In this document: positions 14,461-45,343 of the stretch, in pieces
How the letters are laid out: each line of letters begins with the position of its first letter
Position numbering within the stretch: the first letter of the stretch is position 1
DNA from: Cyclobacteriaceae bacterium
Lineage (GTDB): Bacteria > Bacteroidota > Bacteroidia > Cytophagales > Cyclobacteriaceae
Direction of reading: 5' to 3'
DNA length: 64,000 nucleotides
NCBI GenBank assembly: GCA_016787605.1
Contig: JAEUUE010000042.1
Location: forward strand, 47,003-111,002
Notes under the pieces: generated by a model
What the model was told of the DNA's origin: nothing
Databases searched by the model: none
What the model saw: the letters and a program-made list of their open reading frames with translations, nothing else
Translations under genes and position numbers: made by a program

Positions 14461-15549
14461 ATGGAATTGAAACATATCCCCCTGGAATCCCTTCACGAAA
14501 AACTCGGCGGCAAGATGGTTCCCTTTGCCGGATACCTCATGCCGGTCCGTTACAGTTCCGACATCGAAGAACACATGACCGTTCGTCAAGGCGTGGGCGT
14601 ATTTGACGTGTCGCACATGGGCGAATTCACAATCCGTGGTCCGCACGCGCTCGACCTGATCCAGCGGGTCACCAGCAACGATGCCAGCAAACTCGTGGAC
14701 GGACAGGCGCAATACTCCTGCCTGCCCAACGAAACCGGAGGAATCGTCGACGACCTCATCGTCTACAAGAAAAAGGACAATGACTACCTCATCGTGGTCA
14801 ATGCCTCCAACATTGAAAAAGACTGGAACTGGTTTGTGAAGTACAACACCAAAGGCGCGGAGATGAAGAACATCTCTGACGATATCTGCCTGTTTGCCGT
14901 GCAGGGGCCCAAGGCCGCCGGCGTCCTTCAGAAACTAACGTCCGTAGACTTGTCCACCATCAAGTATTATCACTTTGCGATTGGAAAGTTTGCCGGCGTT
15001 GACGATGTGATCATCAGCAACACTGGTTACACCGGGGCTGGCGGTTTTGAAATCTACGTCAACAAGGCCGCCGCCGAAAAGACCTGGAATGCCATCTTCG
15101 AAGCGGGCGCCGCAGAGAACATCAAGCCCATTGGCCTGGGAGCGCGCGACACCCTGCGCCTGGAAATGGGTTTCTGCCTCTACGGAAACGACATCGACGA
15201 CAACACCTCGCCGCTGGAAGCTGGCCTTGGCTGGATCACGAAGTTCACCAAGGAGTTCACCAACAGCGCTAATCTCAAAGCCCAGAAAGAGGCCGGTGTG
15301 AAAAGAAAACTGGTCGGTTTCCGCATGGTCGACAAGGGCATACCCCGTCATGACTATATTCTTCGCGACGCGGCTGGTGCCGAGATCGGCAAGGTCACCT
15401 CAGGCACCATGTCGCCGATGCTGAATATGGGTATCGGACTGGGTTATATTTCCAATGCCTTTTCCGCACCCGGCTCAGAAATATTCGTTGATGTGCGCGG
15501 GAAACTCCTCAAAGCAAGGGTCCATAAGCTGCCCCTGATCCAGGAGTAG
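14461..15549 (+). CDS. gcvT: Glycine cleavage system aminomethyltransferase (T protein)
   Basis: A 362-residue T protein of the glycine cleavage system. It moves the methylene group from the H-protein lipoyl arm to tetrahydrofolate and releases ammonia. The family pattern is complete: '[15 protein letters not shown]', '[11 protein letters not shown]', '[15 protein letters not shown]' and '[18 protein letters not shown]'. The ATG at 14461 (MELKHIPLE) gives the normal length, and a promoter box precedes it. The other glycine cleavage genes are not in the window. The stop codon is followed seven bases later by the palindrome array. Confidence 0.95.
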
Positions 15550-15556
15550 GTTTTTA

Positions 15557-16044
15557 TCGGGCTAAAGCCCGATCCTGGTCTTTTTGATCATCCTCGACCC
15601 CGCCTTAAAAGGCGGGGCAATTGAAAGGCGGGGCAATTGAAGATTCCCTGCAACAAAAAAGCAATTGCCACGGCCTTTAGGCCGTGGATAATGGATCAAC
15701 AAGCACATCTGGGCTTTAGCCCAGGGAATGACAATCGGGCTAAAGCCCGATCCTGTATTTCTTCCTCATCCTAAACCCCGCCTTGAAAGGCGGGGGAATT
15801 GAAGATTCCCTACAACAAAAACAATTGCCACGGCCTTTAGGCCGTGGATAATGGATCAACAAGCACCTCTGGGCTTTAGCCCAGGAACTGACTAATCGGG
15901 CTAAAGCCCGATCCTATTTTTTTGATCATCCTCGACCCCGCCTTGAAAGGCGGGGCAATTGAAGATTCCCTACAACAAAAACAATTGCCACGGCCTTTAG
16001 GCCGTGGATGAAGGATCAATAAGCACATTTGGGCTTTAGTCCAG
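15557..16044. repeat. Tandem array of compound palindromic elements (REP/BIME-like), three units
   Basis: Three tandem units of 178, 161 and about 149 bases. Each has four palindromes in fixed order. P1 is TCGGGCTAAAGCCCGA at 15557, 15735 and 15896. P2 has CCCCGCC/GGCGGGG arms at 15598, 15776 and 15936. P3 is CCACGGCCTTTAGGCCGTGG at 15668, 15828 and 15988. P4 has a GGGCTTTAGCCC core at 15709, 15869 and 16029 (the last imperfect). P1 and P4 mirror each other, as do P2 and P3. The centre is marked by CAATTG on each side, after P2 and before P3. Unit 1 carries an extra copy of the 16-bp right arm of P2 at 15627-15642. The array lies between gcvT and the RAYT gene, and nothing in it codes for protein. 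Confidence 0.85.
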
Positions 16045-16125
16045 AAAATGTCATGAAAACCGTCAGCACTTCCGGCCATTAATCCGGCCCTGTTCAAGTA
16101 GGTTGCCCTCCAGAACTATTCAACA

Positions 16126-16566
16126 ATGCCTTTTCTCAAAATCTGGATTCATGCGGTCTGGGCTACTTCCGGAAGGCAGCCGCTTCTCCTGCCCCACATC
16201 AGGAAGAAAGTATTCCTGCACATCAAGGAAAATGGCATTCAAAAAGGAATCGTTGTTGATCGCGTCAATGGATATGATGATCATGTCCATGTCCTTCTCT
16301 CACTCAGCAACGATCAGTCCATTGCAAGAACTATCCAGTTGCTCAAGGGAGAATCCTCATTCTGGATAAACAAGAATTCCCTGATCCCCATGAAATTTCA
16401 ATGGCAGGACGAATATTACGCTGCCTCGGTCAGCGATACACACCTGCTCAACCTGAGGAACTACATTGACAGCCAGGAAGAACACCATCGCAAGAAGACC
16501 TTCCTTGACGAGTATGAGGAACTTATTCAGGAAATAACAGCCACCTTGCCTCCTGTACAGGTCTGA
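16126..16566 (+). CDS. REP-associated tyrosine transposase (RAYT), IS200-like Y1 family
   Basis: A 146-residue single-domain Y1 transposase. The HUH metal-binding motif is His53-Val-His55 in DDHVHVLLSL. The candidate nucleophile is Tyr113 in RNYIDSQEEHH, and the WQDEYYAASVS segment before it is typical of the family. Such enzymes cut and join single-stranded DNA at hairpin ends. RAYTs are domesticated, usually single-copy relatives associated with REP palindromes rather than mobile on their own. No tnpB or accessory gene is present. The gene lies 82 bases downstream of three tandem palindromic units, which argues for RAYT over an ordinary insertion sequence. All catalytic residues are present, so it may be active. 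Confidence 0.85.
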   Translation: MPFLKIWIHAVWATSGRQPLLLPHIRKKVFLHIKENGIQKGIVVDRVNGYDDHVHVLLSLSNDQSIARTIQLLKGESSFWINKNSLIPMKFQWQDEYYAASVSDTHLLNLRNYIDSQEEHHRKKTFLDEYEELIQEITATLPPVQV

Positions 16567-16609: not shown

Positions 16610-17314
16610 ATGAAGACCATCGACGTCTGTCTCAGTCCCGAACTCATGCATCTCTACCATGTGCGCGACCGCACCATCGTGGTGGTCGACATTCTTCGCG
16701 CCACCTCGTGCATGGTGACGGCCTTTGCTCACGGCGTGGAGAGCATCACCCCGGTAGCCGACCTGAACACCTGCCGGATGATGAAATCCAAGGGCTACAT
16801 CATTTCCGGGGAACGCGACGGCAAAAAAGTGCAGGGCTTCGACAAGGGCAATTCGCCCTACGAATATGCCGGGTCCGACATCCGGGGCAAACGGATCGCG
16901 TTCACCACCACCAACGGAACCCAGGCCATCGAGAAATCGAAAGATGCCAACAAGGTGATTATCGGCTCGTTCCTCAACCTTTCCACCGTGGTCAAATACC
17001 TCCTCTTCGGAGAAAATAATGTGCTCATCGTATGCGCCGGGTGGAAAGGCAAAGTCAACCTCGAAGACACGCTCTTTGCCGGCGCGGTGATCGACAAACT
17101 TCGCAACCACATCGAGCCCGACTGCGATGCGCCGCTGATCGCACATGATTTGTACACGCGGGCCAAGGGCGACATGGTCACTTACTTGTCTAATTCCTCA
17201 CACGTCAAGCGGCTGGACAAACTCGATATCCACAAGGACATCGAGTATTGCCTCACCCCGGACCAATTTGATGTGCTGCCGAAACTGAAAAACGGTGTGC
17301 TGACCTTGTCCTGA
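16610..17314 (+). CDS. 2-phosphosulfolactate phosphatase family protein (ComB-like)
   Basis: A 234-residue ComB-family protein (PF04029). The archetype dephosphorylates 2-phosphosulfolactate in coenzyme M synthesis. Conserved stretches are 'VVVDILRATSCMVTA', 'ISGERDGKKVQGFDKGNSP', 'IAFTTTNGTQAI' and 'CAGWKGKVNLEDTLFAG'. No other coenzyme M or sulfolactate gene lies nearby, and Bacteroidota do not make methanogenic coenzyme M by the known route. The family assignment is therefore safer than the substrate. It starts 43 bases after the RAYT and converges on the amidohydrolase gene. Confidence 0.85.
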   Translation: MKTIDVCLSPELMHLYHVRDRTIVVVDILRATSCMVTAFAHGVESITPVADLNTCRMMKSKGYIISGERDGKKVQGFDKGNSPYEYAGSDIRGKRIAFTTTNGTQAIEKSKDANKVIIGSFLNLSTVVKYLLFGENNVLIVCAGWKGKVNLEDTLFAGAVIDKLRNHIEPDCDAPLIAHDLYTRAKGDMVTYLSNSSHVKRLDKLDIHKDIEYCLTPDQFDVLPKLKNGVLTLS

Positions 17315-21310: not shown

Positions 21311-23713
21311 ATGAAAATACTGAAAAGAACACTAATCGTTCTGCTGATCCTCGTGCTGGCTGCCACCGTGGGTGGCTACTTCTATGTGCAATCTACCGCG
21401 CCGGTTTACGAAGGCTCCGTAACACTGAAAGGACTGAAGGGTGAAGTGGAGGTCTACTACGACACCTACGGCGTTCCGCACATCTATGCGACCACGCTGG
21501 AAGACGCCTATTTTGCCCTCGGTTACGCGCACGCGCAGGACCGACTGTTCCAGATGGAGTTGGCTCGGCGCGCTGCCGGAGGCCGGTTGGCGGAAGTGCT
21601 CGGCAAAGACCTCGTTCCTACCGACAAACTCTTTCGCACCCTGGGCATCAACCAGTTTGCCGAAGCACATGCACAGAAGTTTCTCAACGCAGACACCTCC
21701 GAATTCCAGCGGGGCGCGCTCTCCTATCAAAAAGGAATAAACGAATACATCCGCACGGGCAAGACGCCCATCGAATTCAGCATCATCGGCATCCCCAAGA
21801 CCGAGTTCGTCCCGGCCGACATTTACCGTGTCATCGGGATCATGGCTTTCGGTTTTGCCGAGGGGGTGCAGATCGATCCCATGCTTGAAAAAATCAGGAC
21901 AGAGTTGGGCGACGCCTACCTCAAAGACCTTGCCGTTCAGACTCCGGCCAACGCGGAGCGAATCAGGAACTTCAAAGGAGCACCGCCGACCGCCGGTACG
22001 GAAAAACTGATCAGCGCCATTCGCCAGGGTCTCGACAAGCTCCCGCTTCCGCTATGGGTGGGCAGCAACGGCTGGGTGATCTCCGGTGATCGCACGGACT
22101 CGGGCGAGCCCATCCTGGAAAACGACACCCACATGGGCTATGCGCAACCCGCGGTATGGTATGAGGCCCATCTTGAATTCCCCGGACATCGCTTCTATGG
22201 CCATCATGCAGCCGGCGTACCCTTTGGCTTCCTGGGCAACAACGCGTTCTGCGCATGGGGGCTCACCATGTTTGAAAACGACGATACCGACTTCTTCCGC
22301 GAAGAGATCAACCCCGAAAATCCCAACCAGGTCAAGTTTGGCGACCAATGGGAAGATCTTACCCTGCGGGAGGAGATCATTAAAGTGAAAGGCGAAGAGG
22401 ATGTCGTCGTCACGGTAAAGACGTCACGTCATGGTCCCCTTTTCAATTCCATTATGGAGGAGACTGTGCCTTCTCCTGCACCGGTAGCCTTGTGGTGGGG
22501 GCTCCACCATCAGACCAACTATGCCCTGCAGACGGTATACGAACTCAACCACGCCACCTCCTTCGCCCAGGTAAGTCACGCCGTTTCACAGATGACTGCA
22601 CCTGGCCTCAACGTGATGTATGCTGACGTGGAGGGCACGATTGCCTGGTGGGCAGCGGCCCGTCTGCCGATCCGGCCTCCTCACGTCAACTCGAAGTTCT
22701 TCCTGGATGGCGCGTCCGGAAAAGACGAATACCTGGGCTACTATGATTTCTCGAAGAACCCCCATGCCATCAATCCGCCGTGGGGTTTTGTGTATTCCGC
22801 CAACAACCAACCTGACACCGTCGACGGCGTGTACTACCCGGGCTACTATTACCCGCGATCCCGGGCCGGCCGTATCGTCGAGTTGCTCAGCGAGGAAAAA
22901 ATGTGGACCCCCGATGAGGTGCGAAAGGTGAACCTGGATGTACAGTCACCAATGCACAGGGATATCGCAAGAACACTCTCCGAAGTGCTCCTCGCTTCCG
23001 GCGACGCCCGCTTCACCGACATGGGTCGCGTGCTGCAGGAATGGAACGGCGACATGAAAAAGGAGGATATCGCCCCATCAATTTATTTCAACCTGCTGTC
23101 CCAGACCACCTACCGGGCGATGATCGATGAACTGGGATGGGAAGCTTACCAGGCTTTTAACAACACGTCCATCGCCCGCAACAGTTGGGAAATCCTGGTG
23201 GCCAGCGAACAATCGCCGTGGTGGGACGACATCAAGACAGCAGATAAGAAGGAAACCCGTACCGATATTGTTATCCGCGCCGCTGAAAAATCGCTGGCTT
23301 TGCTGCAGCAGCACGGGGGTCCGAATATGCAGGACTGGAAATGGGAGAAATATCACCTCCTCAAGCACCCGCACGCCCTCGGCGCGGTGAAATTGCTTGA
23401 CGGATATTTTTCCGTCGGGCCCTTTGGCGTGCCGGGCGGCAGCGAGGTCATCAACAACCTCCATTTCGATCTCGACACCACCGGGATATTCCAGTGCGAC
23501 GGAGGCCCGGCGCTGCGCAAGGTCACCGATATGTCGGATGTGGAAAACGGCATGACGGTGTCACCCACCGGACAATCGGGGAATTTCCTCAGCCCGTATT
23601 ACCAGGATCAGGCGGAGATGTTTGTGAAGGGTGAGGTGCGAAAGATGATGATGAACCGGGAGGAGATTGTGGCAAAGTCGAAGAAACTCCTCCTTAGTCC
23701 GAGCCGGGACTAA
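21311..23713 (+). CDS. Penicillin acylase family protein (peptidase S45)
   Basis: An 800-residue Ntn-hydrolase precursor of the penicillin/AHL acylase family, membrane-anchored or exported through an N-terminal hydrophobic segment (residues 7-27). After autoproteolysis, Ser252 in VG-SNGWVISG would be the N-terminal nucleophile of the large subunit. 'DTHMGYAQPAVWYE', 'NNAFCAWGLTMFENDDTDF' and 'GVPGGSEVINNL' are typical family segments. Substrates may be penicillins, acyl-homoserine lactones or other amides; the sequence does not decide. The stop TAA lies inside the core of a palindrome (23706-23719), so the last residues are encoded by the repeat. Confidence 0.9.
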   Translation: MKILKRTLIVLLILVLAATVGGYFYVQSTAPVYEGSVTLKGLKGEVEVYYDTYGVPHIYATTLEDAYFALGYAHAQDRLFQMELARRAAGGRLAEVLGKDLVPTDKLFRTLGINQFAEAHAQKFLNADTSEFQRGALSYQKGINEYIRTGKTPIEFSIIGIPKTEFVPADIYRVIGIMAFGFAEGVQIDPMLEKIRTELGDAYLKDLAVQTPANAERIRNFKGAPPTAGTEKLISAIRQGLDKLPLPLWVGSNGWVISGDRTDSGEPILENDTHMGYAQPAVWYEAHLEFPGHRFYGHHAAGVPFGFLGNNAFCAWGLTMFENDDTDFFREEINPENPNQVKFGDQWEDLTLREEIIKVKGEEDVVVTVKTSRHGPLFNSIMEETVPSPAPVALWWGLHHQTNYALQTVYELNHATSFAQVSHAVSQMTAPGLNVMYADVEGTIAWWAAARLPIRPPHVNSKFFLDGASGKDEYLGYYDFSKNPHAINPPWGFVYSANNQPDTVDGVYYPGYYYPRSRAGRIVELLSEEKMWTPDEVRKVNLDVQSPMHRDIARTLSEVLLASGDARFTDMGRVLQEWNGDMKKEDIAPSIYFNLLSQTTYRAMIDELGWEAYQAFNNTSIARNSWEILVASEQSPWWDDIKTADKKETRTDIVIRAAEKSLALLQQHGGPNMQDWKWEKYHLLKHPHALGAVKLLDGYFSVGPFGVPGGSEVINNLHFDLDTTGIFQCDGGPALRKVTDMSDVENGMTVSPTGQSGNFLSPYYQDQAEMFVKGEVRKMMMNREEIVAKSKKLLLSPSRD

Positions 23714-24013
23714 AGTCCCAAGAATTCATCTTCTCTTTTTCAATCCCCGCCCTAAAGGGCGGGGCAATTTGAAACTCCTGCTCACACTGGGCGGGGACTA
23801 AAGTCCCCTAATTTCACATCTCATTTCAATCCCCCCCTAAAGGGCGGGGCAATTGAAACTCCTGTTCAGCCCGGGAGGGGACTAAAGTCCCGGATTTCTT
23901 ATTCTCTTCTTCTATCCCCGCCCTAAAGGGCGGGGCAACTTTCTGAAACAATTGCCACGGCCTTCAGGCCGTGGGTAGCCAGTTAATAGATAGATTTTTG
24001 GGGCTTTAGCCCC
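23706..24013. repeat. Palindromic element array between convergent genes
   Basis: Seven or eight palindromes of the CTAAAG/CTTTAG family fill the gap. Three P1-P2 pairs repeat with an 85-86-bp period. The P1 copies have GGGAC/GTCCC arms at 23706, 23793 and 23877. The P2 copies have CCCCGCCC/GGGCGGGG arms at 23745, 23830 (one arm imperfect) and 23916. A single mirror pair follows: P3 is CCACGGCCTTCAGGCCGTGG at 23955 and P4 is GGGGCTTTAGCCCC at 24000-24013. CAATTG again sits on the inner side of P3. The array begins inside the acylase stop region and ends one base before the stop codon of the DUF5107 gene. No gene lies in it. Confidence 0.85.
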
Positions 24014-39550: not shown

Positions 39551-39639
39551 CAATTGCCCCGGGCTTCAGCCCGGGGACACAAAGAACAGGGAATTATTTT
39601 GGATCGGGCTTTAGCCCGACTACTCCACCGGCTTGAACG
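39551..39639. repeat. Direct repeat, copy A: P3-P4 half element with a copy of the ArnT 3' end
   Basis: This segment matches 39797-39881 almost base for base. It contains the P3 palindrome (CCCCGGGCTTCAGCCCGGGG, 39557-39576), the P4 palindrome (39604-39619) and, on the minus strand, a reading F-K-P-V-E-stop like the end of the ArnT gene. No longer reading frame continues upstream of this stop, so only the tail was duplicated. The rest of the 342-base gap (39520-39861) has no gene. Confidence 0.75.
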
Positions 39640-39796: not shown

Positions 39797-39881
39797 CAAT
39801 TGCCCCGGGCTTCAGCCCGGGGACATAAAGAACAGGGAATTTTGGATCGGGCTTTAGCCCGCTACTCACCCGGCTTGAACG
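39797..39881. repeat. Direct repeat, copy B: P3-P4 half element overlapping the ArnT stop
   Basis: This is the second copy of the repeat at 39551-39639, about 246 bases away. The P3 palindrome is at 39803-39822 and P4 at 39847-39861. The stop codon and last five codons of the ArnT-like gene form its right end. Confidence 0.75.
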
Positions 39882-45190: not shown

Positions 45191-45343
45191 TGGGCTAAAG
45201 CCCTTTTGTCTTTCTCTTCCCTTAGTCCACGCCCTAAAGGGCGTGGCTATGAAAGGGCGTGGCAATGAAAGGGCGTGGCAATCAATTGCCCCGGCCTTCA
45301 GGCCGGGGTTAAAGAAAACAAACTGCAATTGGGCTTTAGCCCA
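45191..45343. repeat. Compound palindromic element between convergent genes
   Basis: One complete four-palindrome unit. P1 is TGGGCTAAAGCCC at 45191-45203. P2 is CCACGCCCTAAAGGGCGTGG at 45227-45246. P3 is CCCCGGCCTTCAGGCCGGGG at 45289-45308. P4 is TGGGCTTTAGCCCA at 45330-45343. After P2 the right arm plus GCAAT-GAAA is repeated two more times as 16-base units (45251-45282), and CAATTG stands before P3. The unit ends three bases before the stop codon of rsmG. Confidence 0.85.

Follow-up and report, generated by a model that had tools for sequence, protein, structure and literature searches.

A dispersed two-hairpin repeat beside a subclass 1.2-type Y1 transposase points to a REP-like family in Bacteroidota

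Introduction

REP/RAYT systems are a leading case of a domesticated bacterial transposase. Among the Y1 transposases classified by Quentin et al. (2018; PMC6006769), the TnpA proteins of subclass 1.2 are characterized, in the available text of that paper, by the motifs DH[IV]H, WQ and Y-x3-Q-x2-HH, a median length of 148 aa, occurrence in Bacteroidetes and low copy number. A table in the same source enters "no" for REPs in this subclass, and the available text states that these proteins generally have no typical IS200 end structures and do not share the properties of insertion sequences. The accessible portion of PMC8266576 describes a REP with a TTTA loop whose cleavage was only moderately affected by a stem swap. 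RepRanger (PMC12306157) tabulates REP counts for two Flavobacterium genomes, and the words RAYT and TnpA do not appear in the main text in its available form. No description of REPs of subclass 1.2 was found in the open-licence literature, a scope outside which subscription papers mostly fall.

The DNA analyzed here, referred to as the window, is a stretch of 64,000 nt from a Cyclobacteriaceae bacterium (assembly GCA_016787605.1, contig JAEUUE010000042.1, positions 47,003 to 111,002). A sequence-only reading of the window had proposed that an array of palindromes and an adjacent Y1 transposase gene form a REP/RAYT unit.

Results

An array of inverted units upstream of tnpA

As had been reported from the sequence, four palindromes (P1 to P4) recur in fixed order in three blocks, at 15556-16050, directly upstream of an intact Y1 transposase ORF, tnpA. 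The array follows gcvT, which ends at 15549, and tnpA is followed at 16610 by a gene for a 2-phosphosulfolactate phosphatase of the comB type. P1-P2 is the inverted form of P3-P4, and the element is therefore a single unit, used in inverted pairs: each block consists of one unit of about 63 nt and an inverted copy of it (Table 1). The directional, BIME-like hairpin pairs that had been proposed as cognate to the transposase were recovered as two inverted two-hairpin units per block. The proposal that the units mirror one another about a centre flanked by CAATTG holds for the layout of P1/P4 and P2/P3 but not for their stem sequences, and in the second block P2 is followed by GAATTG in place of CAATTG. 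P1 and P2 recur at intervals of 178 and 160 nt and P3 at 160 and 160 nt; the first block is the longest because 16 nt, a half hairpin plus CAATTG, are duplicated within it. P4 of the third block is imperfect (TTTGGGCTTTAGTCCAGA).

Structure prediction, which had been suggested as a check, folded P1, P2, P3 and P4 (one copy each, from the first block) as single-stranded DNA into the expected hairpins, with z-scores of -3.07 to -4.70 against dinucleotide shuffles. The pattern GGGCTWWAGCCC occurs at 26 places in the genome versus 2 for its reversed control, and CAATTGCCN{2,6}SYTTYA gives 15 matches versus 1. Chance palindromes were rejected on these pattern counts and on the hairpin counts against control segments and shuffles given below. 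Rfam, run over the window at gathering thresholds, returned no match to any described RNA family.

A covariance model (R1) finds 31 units in the window's genome, the best match being C153:92285-92345 on the plus strand (5.6e-16). Several dispersed units of the window end 0-4 nt from the 3' end of a neighboring ORF (24013/24014, 39861/39862 and 45343/45347), so that they may double as gene ends.

Table 1. Repeat units and transposase gene in the window (R1, covariance model match; HP1 and HP2, first and second hairpin of the unit)
Feature	Position	Strand	Evidence
Unit 1 inverted (P1-P2): HP2' GGGCTAAAGCCC 15559-15570; HP1' CCCCGCCTTAAAAGGCGGGG 15598-15617; head CAATTG 15618-15623	15558..15623	-	R1, C153:62560-62625
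16-nt reiteration of 3' arm + head (half-hairpin duplication)	15624..15639	-	
Unit 1 (P3-P4): head CAATTG, HP1 CCACGGCCTTTAGGCCGTGG, HP2 GGGCTTTAGCCC	15662..15723	+	R1, 4.7e-15; hairpins folded
Unit 2 inverted (P1-P2)	15736..15801	-	R1, C153:62738-62803, 2.1e-8
Unit 2 (P3-P4)	15822..15883	+	R1, 1.4e-14; folded
Unit 3 inverted (P1-P2)	15897..15961	-	R1
Unit 3 (P3-P4), HP2 imperfect, closest unit to gene start	15982..16043	+	R1, 1.4e-12
tnpA, Y1/HUH transposase, subclass 1.2 type by motif, 146 aa, HVH 53-55, Tyr113, Y-x3-Q-x2-HH	16126..16566	+	
Dispersed unit	23706..23770	-	R1, C153:70708-70772
Dispersed compound, inverted unit then unit (P1-P4 order)	23878..24013	.	R1, C153:70880-70943 (-), 70951-71015 (+)
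Dispersed single unit	39551..39618	+	R1, C153:86553-86620
Dispersed single unit	39797..39861	+	R1, C153:86799-86863
Dispersed compound, inverted unit then unit, half-hairpin reiterations 45247-45282 between	45191..45343	.	R1, C153:92193-92254 (-), 92285-92345 (+)

Anatomy of the unit

The unit consists, in order, of a head with the consensus T-N-A-A-T-W-G, a first hairpin (HP1), about 20 nt of A+T-rich sequence and a second hairpin (HP2). The earlier identification of CAATTG as the head of P2 and P3 was borne out in this more general form. The companion suggestion of GGATC as the head of some P1 and P4 was not supported: among the units of the window's genome 6 of 20 have GGAT in roughly the 8 nt preceding HP2, and among units from other genomes 3 of 212 do.

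HP1 has an 8-bp stem of free sequence closed by a TTYA loop (TTTA or TTCA), and HP2 is a conserved hairpin with the core GGCTTYAGCC; in the locus scan the stem length, the loop and the HP2 core were imposed by the search rule. The scan of collected loci yielded 197 distinct units, in 194 of which HP1 and HP2 are separated by 15-29 nt (mode 20) and in three by 40 nt, the scan having allowed 10-41 nt. Heads among these units include ATTG (67), ATAG (33), CTAA (10) and GTAG (1). In a set of 232 units, aligned with their flanks and grouped by head, the grouping fixes the last three letters of the head. Here T at position -7 is present in 76% of TTG-head units (96) and 89% of TAG-head units (55), and A at -5 in 81% and 85%, respectively; both are weaker in units with other heads. 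Conservation is scant before position -8 and past the second base after HP2. No cleavage site or dinucleotide was readable in these aligned unit ends, and no conserved guide or terminal sequence was seen in them at HP2.

HP1 is palindromic despite changes in its letters. In a 48-unit alignment all 8 of its pairs show changes on both sides and 98.7% of cells are paired, a count that is partly circular because the aligned units were chosen for at least 7 of 8 pairs. A non-circular test started from HP2 alone, with mononucleotide shuffles as the control: a hairpin of at least 6 bp with a 4-nt loop lies 5' of HP2 at 53 of 94 testable places, compared to 1.1% in the shuffles, and 49 of the 53 have a TTYA loop. 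A perfect hairpin of this length was absent from the remaining 41 places.

Both orders of the inverted pair exist, with heads inside (the window, G134) or outside (G039, G089). The head and 5' arm of HP1 are directly reiterated at two places in the window (Table 1) and at loci L005, L033, L046, L054, L113, L119, L145, L156 and L215; at L005 and L033 this happens several times, each join leading from the loop or arm into the head. By a strict criterion, 11 of the 232 units, at 10 loci, are reiterated. These reiterations could be due to slippage at the hairpin or could be a trace of transposase cutting.

The transposase resembles TnpA subclass 1.2

The 146-aa window protein matches Pfam PF01797 at 7.2e-22, and the HVH motif and Tyr113 noted in the sequence-only reading are intact. 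His53, His55 and Tyr113 are invariant in 13 of 13 aligned proteins (window protein included), as are Q117, H120 and H121; the Y motif reads YIDSQEEHH, the HUH motif reads DDHVH, and WQ is present. Judged by its motifs, its length near 148 aa and its low copy number, with one match in the window's genome among the matches listed when it was used as query, the protein matches TnpA subclass 1.2. Insertion sequences of the IS200/IS605 type (subclass 1.1) are multi-copy with left and right hairpins on one strand, an arrangement that was not found here: there is one gene copy and the flanking units are inverted.

The protein had been called a RAYT, and we rejected this assignment. Although the layout is that of a REPtron, and TTTA and TTCA loops also occur in canonical REPs such as those of Haemophilus influenzae (available text of PMC2817692), the protein scores 20.9 bits where the NCBIfam RAYT model NF047646 requires 80, has YIDSQEEHH in place of Y-I-x-x-N-P, and is accompanied by heads that are not GTAG or GTGG, apart from the single GTAG among the 197 distinct units. 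A phylogenetic tree places clade A, which contains the window protein (92 rows), on one side of a branch with SH-aLRT 96 and class 2, represented by E. coli RayT and three genes of the window's genome, on another with 98; this is a tree made by a quick method from few columns, with long-branch warnings. We give no credence to the reading of this locus as a standard class 2 RAYT system with canonical GTAG REPs.

The IS200 model scores the protein at 53.1, with a cut-off of 55. All 13 aligned members match both NCBIfam models, with best E-values of 2.7e-21 for IS200 and 1.2e-8 for RAYT. The nearest solved proteins by profile are the IS608 and ISDra2 transposases; this profile search of solved proteins, taken to E 10, matched 13 sequences, and E. 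coli RayT (4er8) was absent from them. The predicted structure (mean pLDDT 86.5) matches ISDra2 at 6.6e-9 and RayT 4er8 at 2.8e-5, with a lower rmsd to 4er8 (2.6), which may reflect only the modelling of a monomer.

The window's genome also carries three class 2 type Y1 ORFs (L002, L003 and L004) with the Y motifs YIHENP, YVHQNP and YIHSNP. A scan of viral contigs found no relative of the window protein, and a scan of plasmids found three records with at most 31% identity to it. The window's tnpA has units upstream only and its protein sits on a long branch in the tree, for which reasons this copy may be past its prime.

Oriented hairpins beside related transposase genes

Clade A proteins with 48-58% identity are present in 15 of 145 related genomes besides the window's, among the matches listed. 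A scan of species genomes confirmed at least 573 relatives, from which 79 named loci were kept. These are mostly from Bacteroidota (Flavobacterium, Algoriphagus, Cyclobacterium, Dyadobacter and Pedobacter among others), with some from Ignavibacteria and a few from metagenome genomes labelled Acidobacteria, Deltaproteobacteria, Cloacimonadota, Calditrichia or Neomarinimicrobiota. An oriented TTYA hairpin lies within 250 nt upstream of the gene at 54 of the 79 loci, downstream at 52 and on either side at 68, compared to 18 of 1331 distal control segments; none was found within this distance at the other 11. The HP2 core was found within 200 nt upstream at 61 of 95 loci and downstream at 34 (control, 11/1676). 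Usually a unit is present on one or both sides of the gene, and where both hairpins are seen HP2 is proximal to the gene and the head is outermost. Genome G076 has a tandem array of its own, with a period of 162 nt and a different HP1 stem, beginning about 0.5 kb from its gene.

The two hairpins that flank a gene are more alike than shuffled ones, with a mean of 6.2 differences versus 9.5 (0 of 1000 shuffles as low; 3 of 34 pairs identical); this comparison covers 34 loci of 95, those where a hairpin was called upstream and downstream alike, and a few of its rows may be HP2 in place of HP1. Head type follows the protein tree: on a tree of 91 proteins, which has few columns and many open forks, the base at the end of the head (G at 50 loci, A at 19) changes 9 times, versus 16.7 times when shuffled (0 of 500 as low).

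Clade B (14 loci, L059-L072), which shares the Y motif and does not form one side of a single branch in the tree, shows hairpins of 7 bp or more in a 300-nt flank at 12 of 14 loci, compared to 4 of 81 control segments. Its palindromes are often CCCACGGTTTAAACCGTGGG, with stems of up to 18 bp, and are probably a second REP class.

Units follow clade A across the phylum

If the palindromes were equally abundant without the transposase, the link between the two would fall, as the sequence-only reading had recognized. Units are far commoner in genomes with the clade, although some genomes without the gene carry many. Among 146 genomes (at most 37 candidates scored in each), 15 of the 16 that have clade A contain units, as do 27 of the 130 that lack it (Fisher 1.2e-8, with Fisher p-values only a guide because the genomes are related and not independent). 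Across the phylum, 247 evenly sampled genomes were searched (at most 22 candidates scored in each), and the covariance model found units in 74: in 33 of 35 with a strong clade A profile match (E < 1e-46) and in 41 of 212 others, a division chosen after viewing the match list, at a gap in that list. Of those 212, units occur in 10 of the 22 whose match is weaker (to 1e-38) and in 31 of the 190 with no match. Units were absent by the same model from 2 of the 35 strong-match genomes and from the clade A genome G130. The simple pattern CAATTGCCN{2,6}SYTTYA revealed the G076 array and is too loose for use across the 146 genomes, because in many it gives about as many matches as its reversed control.

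Twelve chosen genomes, three of them picked as earlier unit-negative, were recounted with a limit raised to 150 candidates and gave 31 (the window's genome), 75, 47, 38, 24, 24, 18, 8 and 7 copies, and 0 in the three negatives. Several genomes with many units are orphans in which no clade A gene was found. G351 (47 units), G197 (24) and G250 (18) lack a clade A match at 1e-38; G021, G135, G062, G039, G102 and G058 are such genomes in the first sample; and G351, G197, G250, G039, G135 and G062 have 14-47 counted copies. Either the units outlive the gene or another protein moves them, and these orphan families weigh most heavily among the results against a strict link between gene and repeat. 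Two of G351, G197 and G250 come from genus g114. The gene is present in 8 sampled genomes of this genus, and at least 7 others carry units without it, a pattern that would fit repeated loss.

These data also bear on a purely regulatory role, in which the hairpins would be terminators or translation blockers of tnpA or its neighbors, spread by gene conversion or drift and not by the transposase. Of the 13 units in the window, 12 lie outside ORFs and the other overlaps an ORF end by 8 nt, several are within about 10 nt of a stop codon, and at many loci HP2 is near the start codon, all in favor of such a role. We nevertheless regard it as very improbable, since inverted copies also occur downstream of the gene (52/79), dispersed units lie far from tnpA, unit presence tracks the gene across the phylum and head type tracks the protein.

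Dispersal and insertion sites

The dispersal of units is supported by copies that are 98-100% alike at different sites. Three contigs of G089 (C18, C30 and C22) carry compounds that share 98-100% identity across 160 nt, and the stretch 80-200 nt to their left is at 68-74%, no different by that measure from unrelated sequence. Two sites in G134, separated by 1.3 Mb, are 98% alike, versus 67% in the flank. Copies on four contigs of G039 are 72-91% alike, which is weak by the gapped-alignment measure: unrelated stretches score about 62-84% in gapped global alignments, and only the 98-100% pairs are therefore telling. The likeness in G089 extends at least 60 nt past HP1, so the moved piece can be longer than the unit pair.

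The relatives read lack the window's whole array and gene block at this gene pair. The genes gcvT and comB overlap or are at most 129 nt apart in 13 of the 14 junctions, and in the other, G013, they are separated by 633 nt with another ORF; the 14 were picked mostly for a short gap, plus G013, and other listed pairs are about 390-780 nt apart. No tnpA match was seen by eye between gcvT and comB in relatives, among the matches listed. Elsewhere, G024 (C1:2470200-2473800) and G013 (C83:27100-31600; L259, L258) show a variable site. The G024 transposase gene is bracketed by a pair of copies, each about 69 nt long, of the end of the upstream gene, and G013 has other sequence at the matching site, with repeats of similar short pieces. 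Although G013 lacks the tnpA stretch of G024, this other sequence means that there is no clean empty site.

Clustering of units near the gene was seen in two of four genomes examined. At least 7 of the 25 units outside the array in the window's genome are on the array's contig, which is 2.8% of the assembly, and in G315, where 52 of 75 units are among the matches listed, 8 of the 49 non-adjacent units listed are no more than 30 kb from the gene (expected, 1.05). Among the units listed for G208 (18 of 24), only the adjacent one is within 30 kb of the gene, and G134 appears likewise by eye.

A single unit might also be read as a compressed insertion sequence of the IS200 type, a MITE of about 63 nt that has lost its interior, keeps HP1 as its left-end and HP2 as its right-end hairpin, and is moved strand-specifically. 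The protein is indeed closer to IS200/IS605 TnpA than to RAYTs, the two hairpins are co-oriented at the narrow distance given above, like left and right ends, and single dispersed units exist (Table 1, 39551-39618 and 39797-39861). Such an element would place a left hairpin on one side of the gene and a right hairpin on the other, yet units are inverted around the gene; the window's genome has a single gene of this type, HP2 has no conserved guide or terminal sequence, and the alike copies in G039, G089 and G134 are two-unit compounds. We consider this explanation unlikely.

Discussion

The locus is probably a REPtron, in which a single-copy HUH/Y1 transposase of subclass 1.2 type is paired with a cognate, dispersed, non-autonomous repeat that it would recognize and spread as single-stranded DNA. 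Dispersed intergenic palindromes, inverted pairs and an adjacent cognate tnpA, by which a REPtron or REPIN is recognized, were all found. The cutting and joining of single-stranded units would be the work of the window protein. It would bind the unit when the DNA is single-stranded, during replication or transcription. The ATWG tetranucleotide at the foot of HP1 may act as a guide that chooses a nearby dinucleotide, as in the IS200/IS605 and REP work covered by the accessible part of PMC8266576; Tyr113 would then cut, and the strand would be joined elsewhere. Under the guide rule of PMC8266576, in which cross-complementarity to positions 4 and 3 or 2 of the head sets the cut dinucleotide, the predicted cuts are at CA for ATTG heads, at CT or CA for ATAG and at TT or TA for NTAA. 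HP2, since it is constant, may provide a second, sequence-specific contact through its TTYA loop and GGC/GCC, perhaps for a second subunit.

REP systems are known already; what is new here is another transposase class, another head and a second conserved hairpin. The evidence suggests that a transposase branch reported without REPs does have a REP-like family of mobile repeats. This would explain the hairpin pair found in the sampled genomes of the phylum. A cognate repeat family also gives subclass 1.2 proteins a substrate that can be tested at once, and heads and stems vary naturally, which amounts to a ready-made specificity experiment. The subclass 1.2 repeats provide an independent comparison for the origin of REPs from IS200-type elements. 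Tentatively, and with slightly less than even conviction, we suggest that REPs arose more than once, an IS200-adjacent subclass 1.2 lineage having independently become REP-maintaining in Bacteroidota. HP1 would then be the old guide-bearing end and HP2 a fixed second site, and the HP1 stem would be free because recognition uses the head, the loop and HP2.

IS608 and ISDra2 (IS200/IS605, subclass 1.1) are the nearest solved structures by sequence and fold, and their hairpins have a 5' guide of the kind proposed here (PMC8266576, available portion). Unlike those multi-copy insertion sequences, the units described here are inverted around the gene, and the IS200 model score is just below its cut-off. 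Class 2 REPtrons (RAYT/TnpAREP with REP, BIME or REPIN), as described in the available text of PMC8266576, PMC2817692 and PMC3116915, likewise combine a single gene and flanking palindromes that share a conserved head and are dispersed and intergenic, often in inverted pairs, with some TTTA-type loops and with repeated blocks beside the gene. They differ in the transposase class and in the head, GTAG/GTGG compared to ATTG/ATAG/NTAA here, and the units here add the second conserved hairpin and have an HP1 stem that varies freely between loci. Class 3 and subclass 2.6 REPtrons, the latter mostly from Bacteroidetes, have non-GTAG heads and atypical hairpins, as here; subclass 2.6 proteins carry YIH[QN]NP and class 3 feet are CnGA, and in the available text of PMC6006769 neither is described with a two-hairpin unit. 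The window protein shares the motifs, length (146 aa), host phylum and low copy number of subclass 1.2 as given in the same source. That subclass was published, in the text available, without REPs, whereas here nearby hairpins accompany 68 of 79 loci in clade A and 12 of 14 in clade B.
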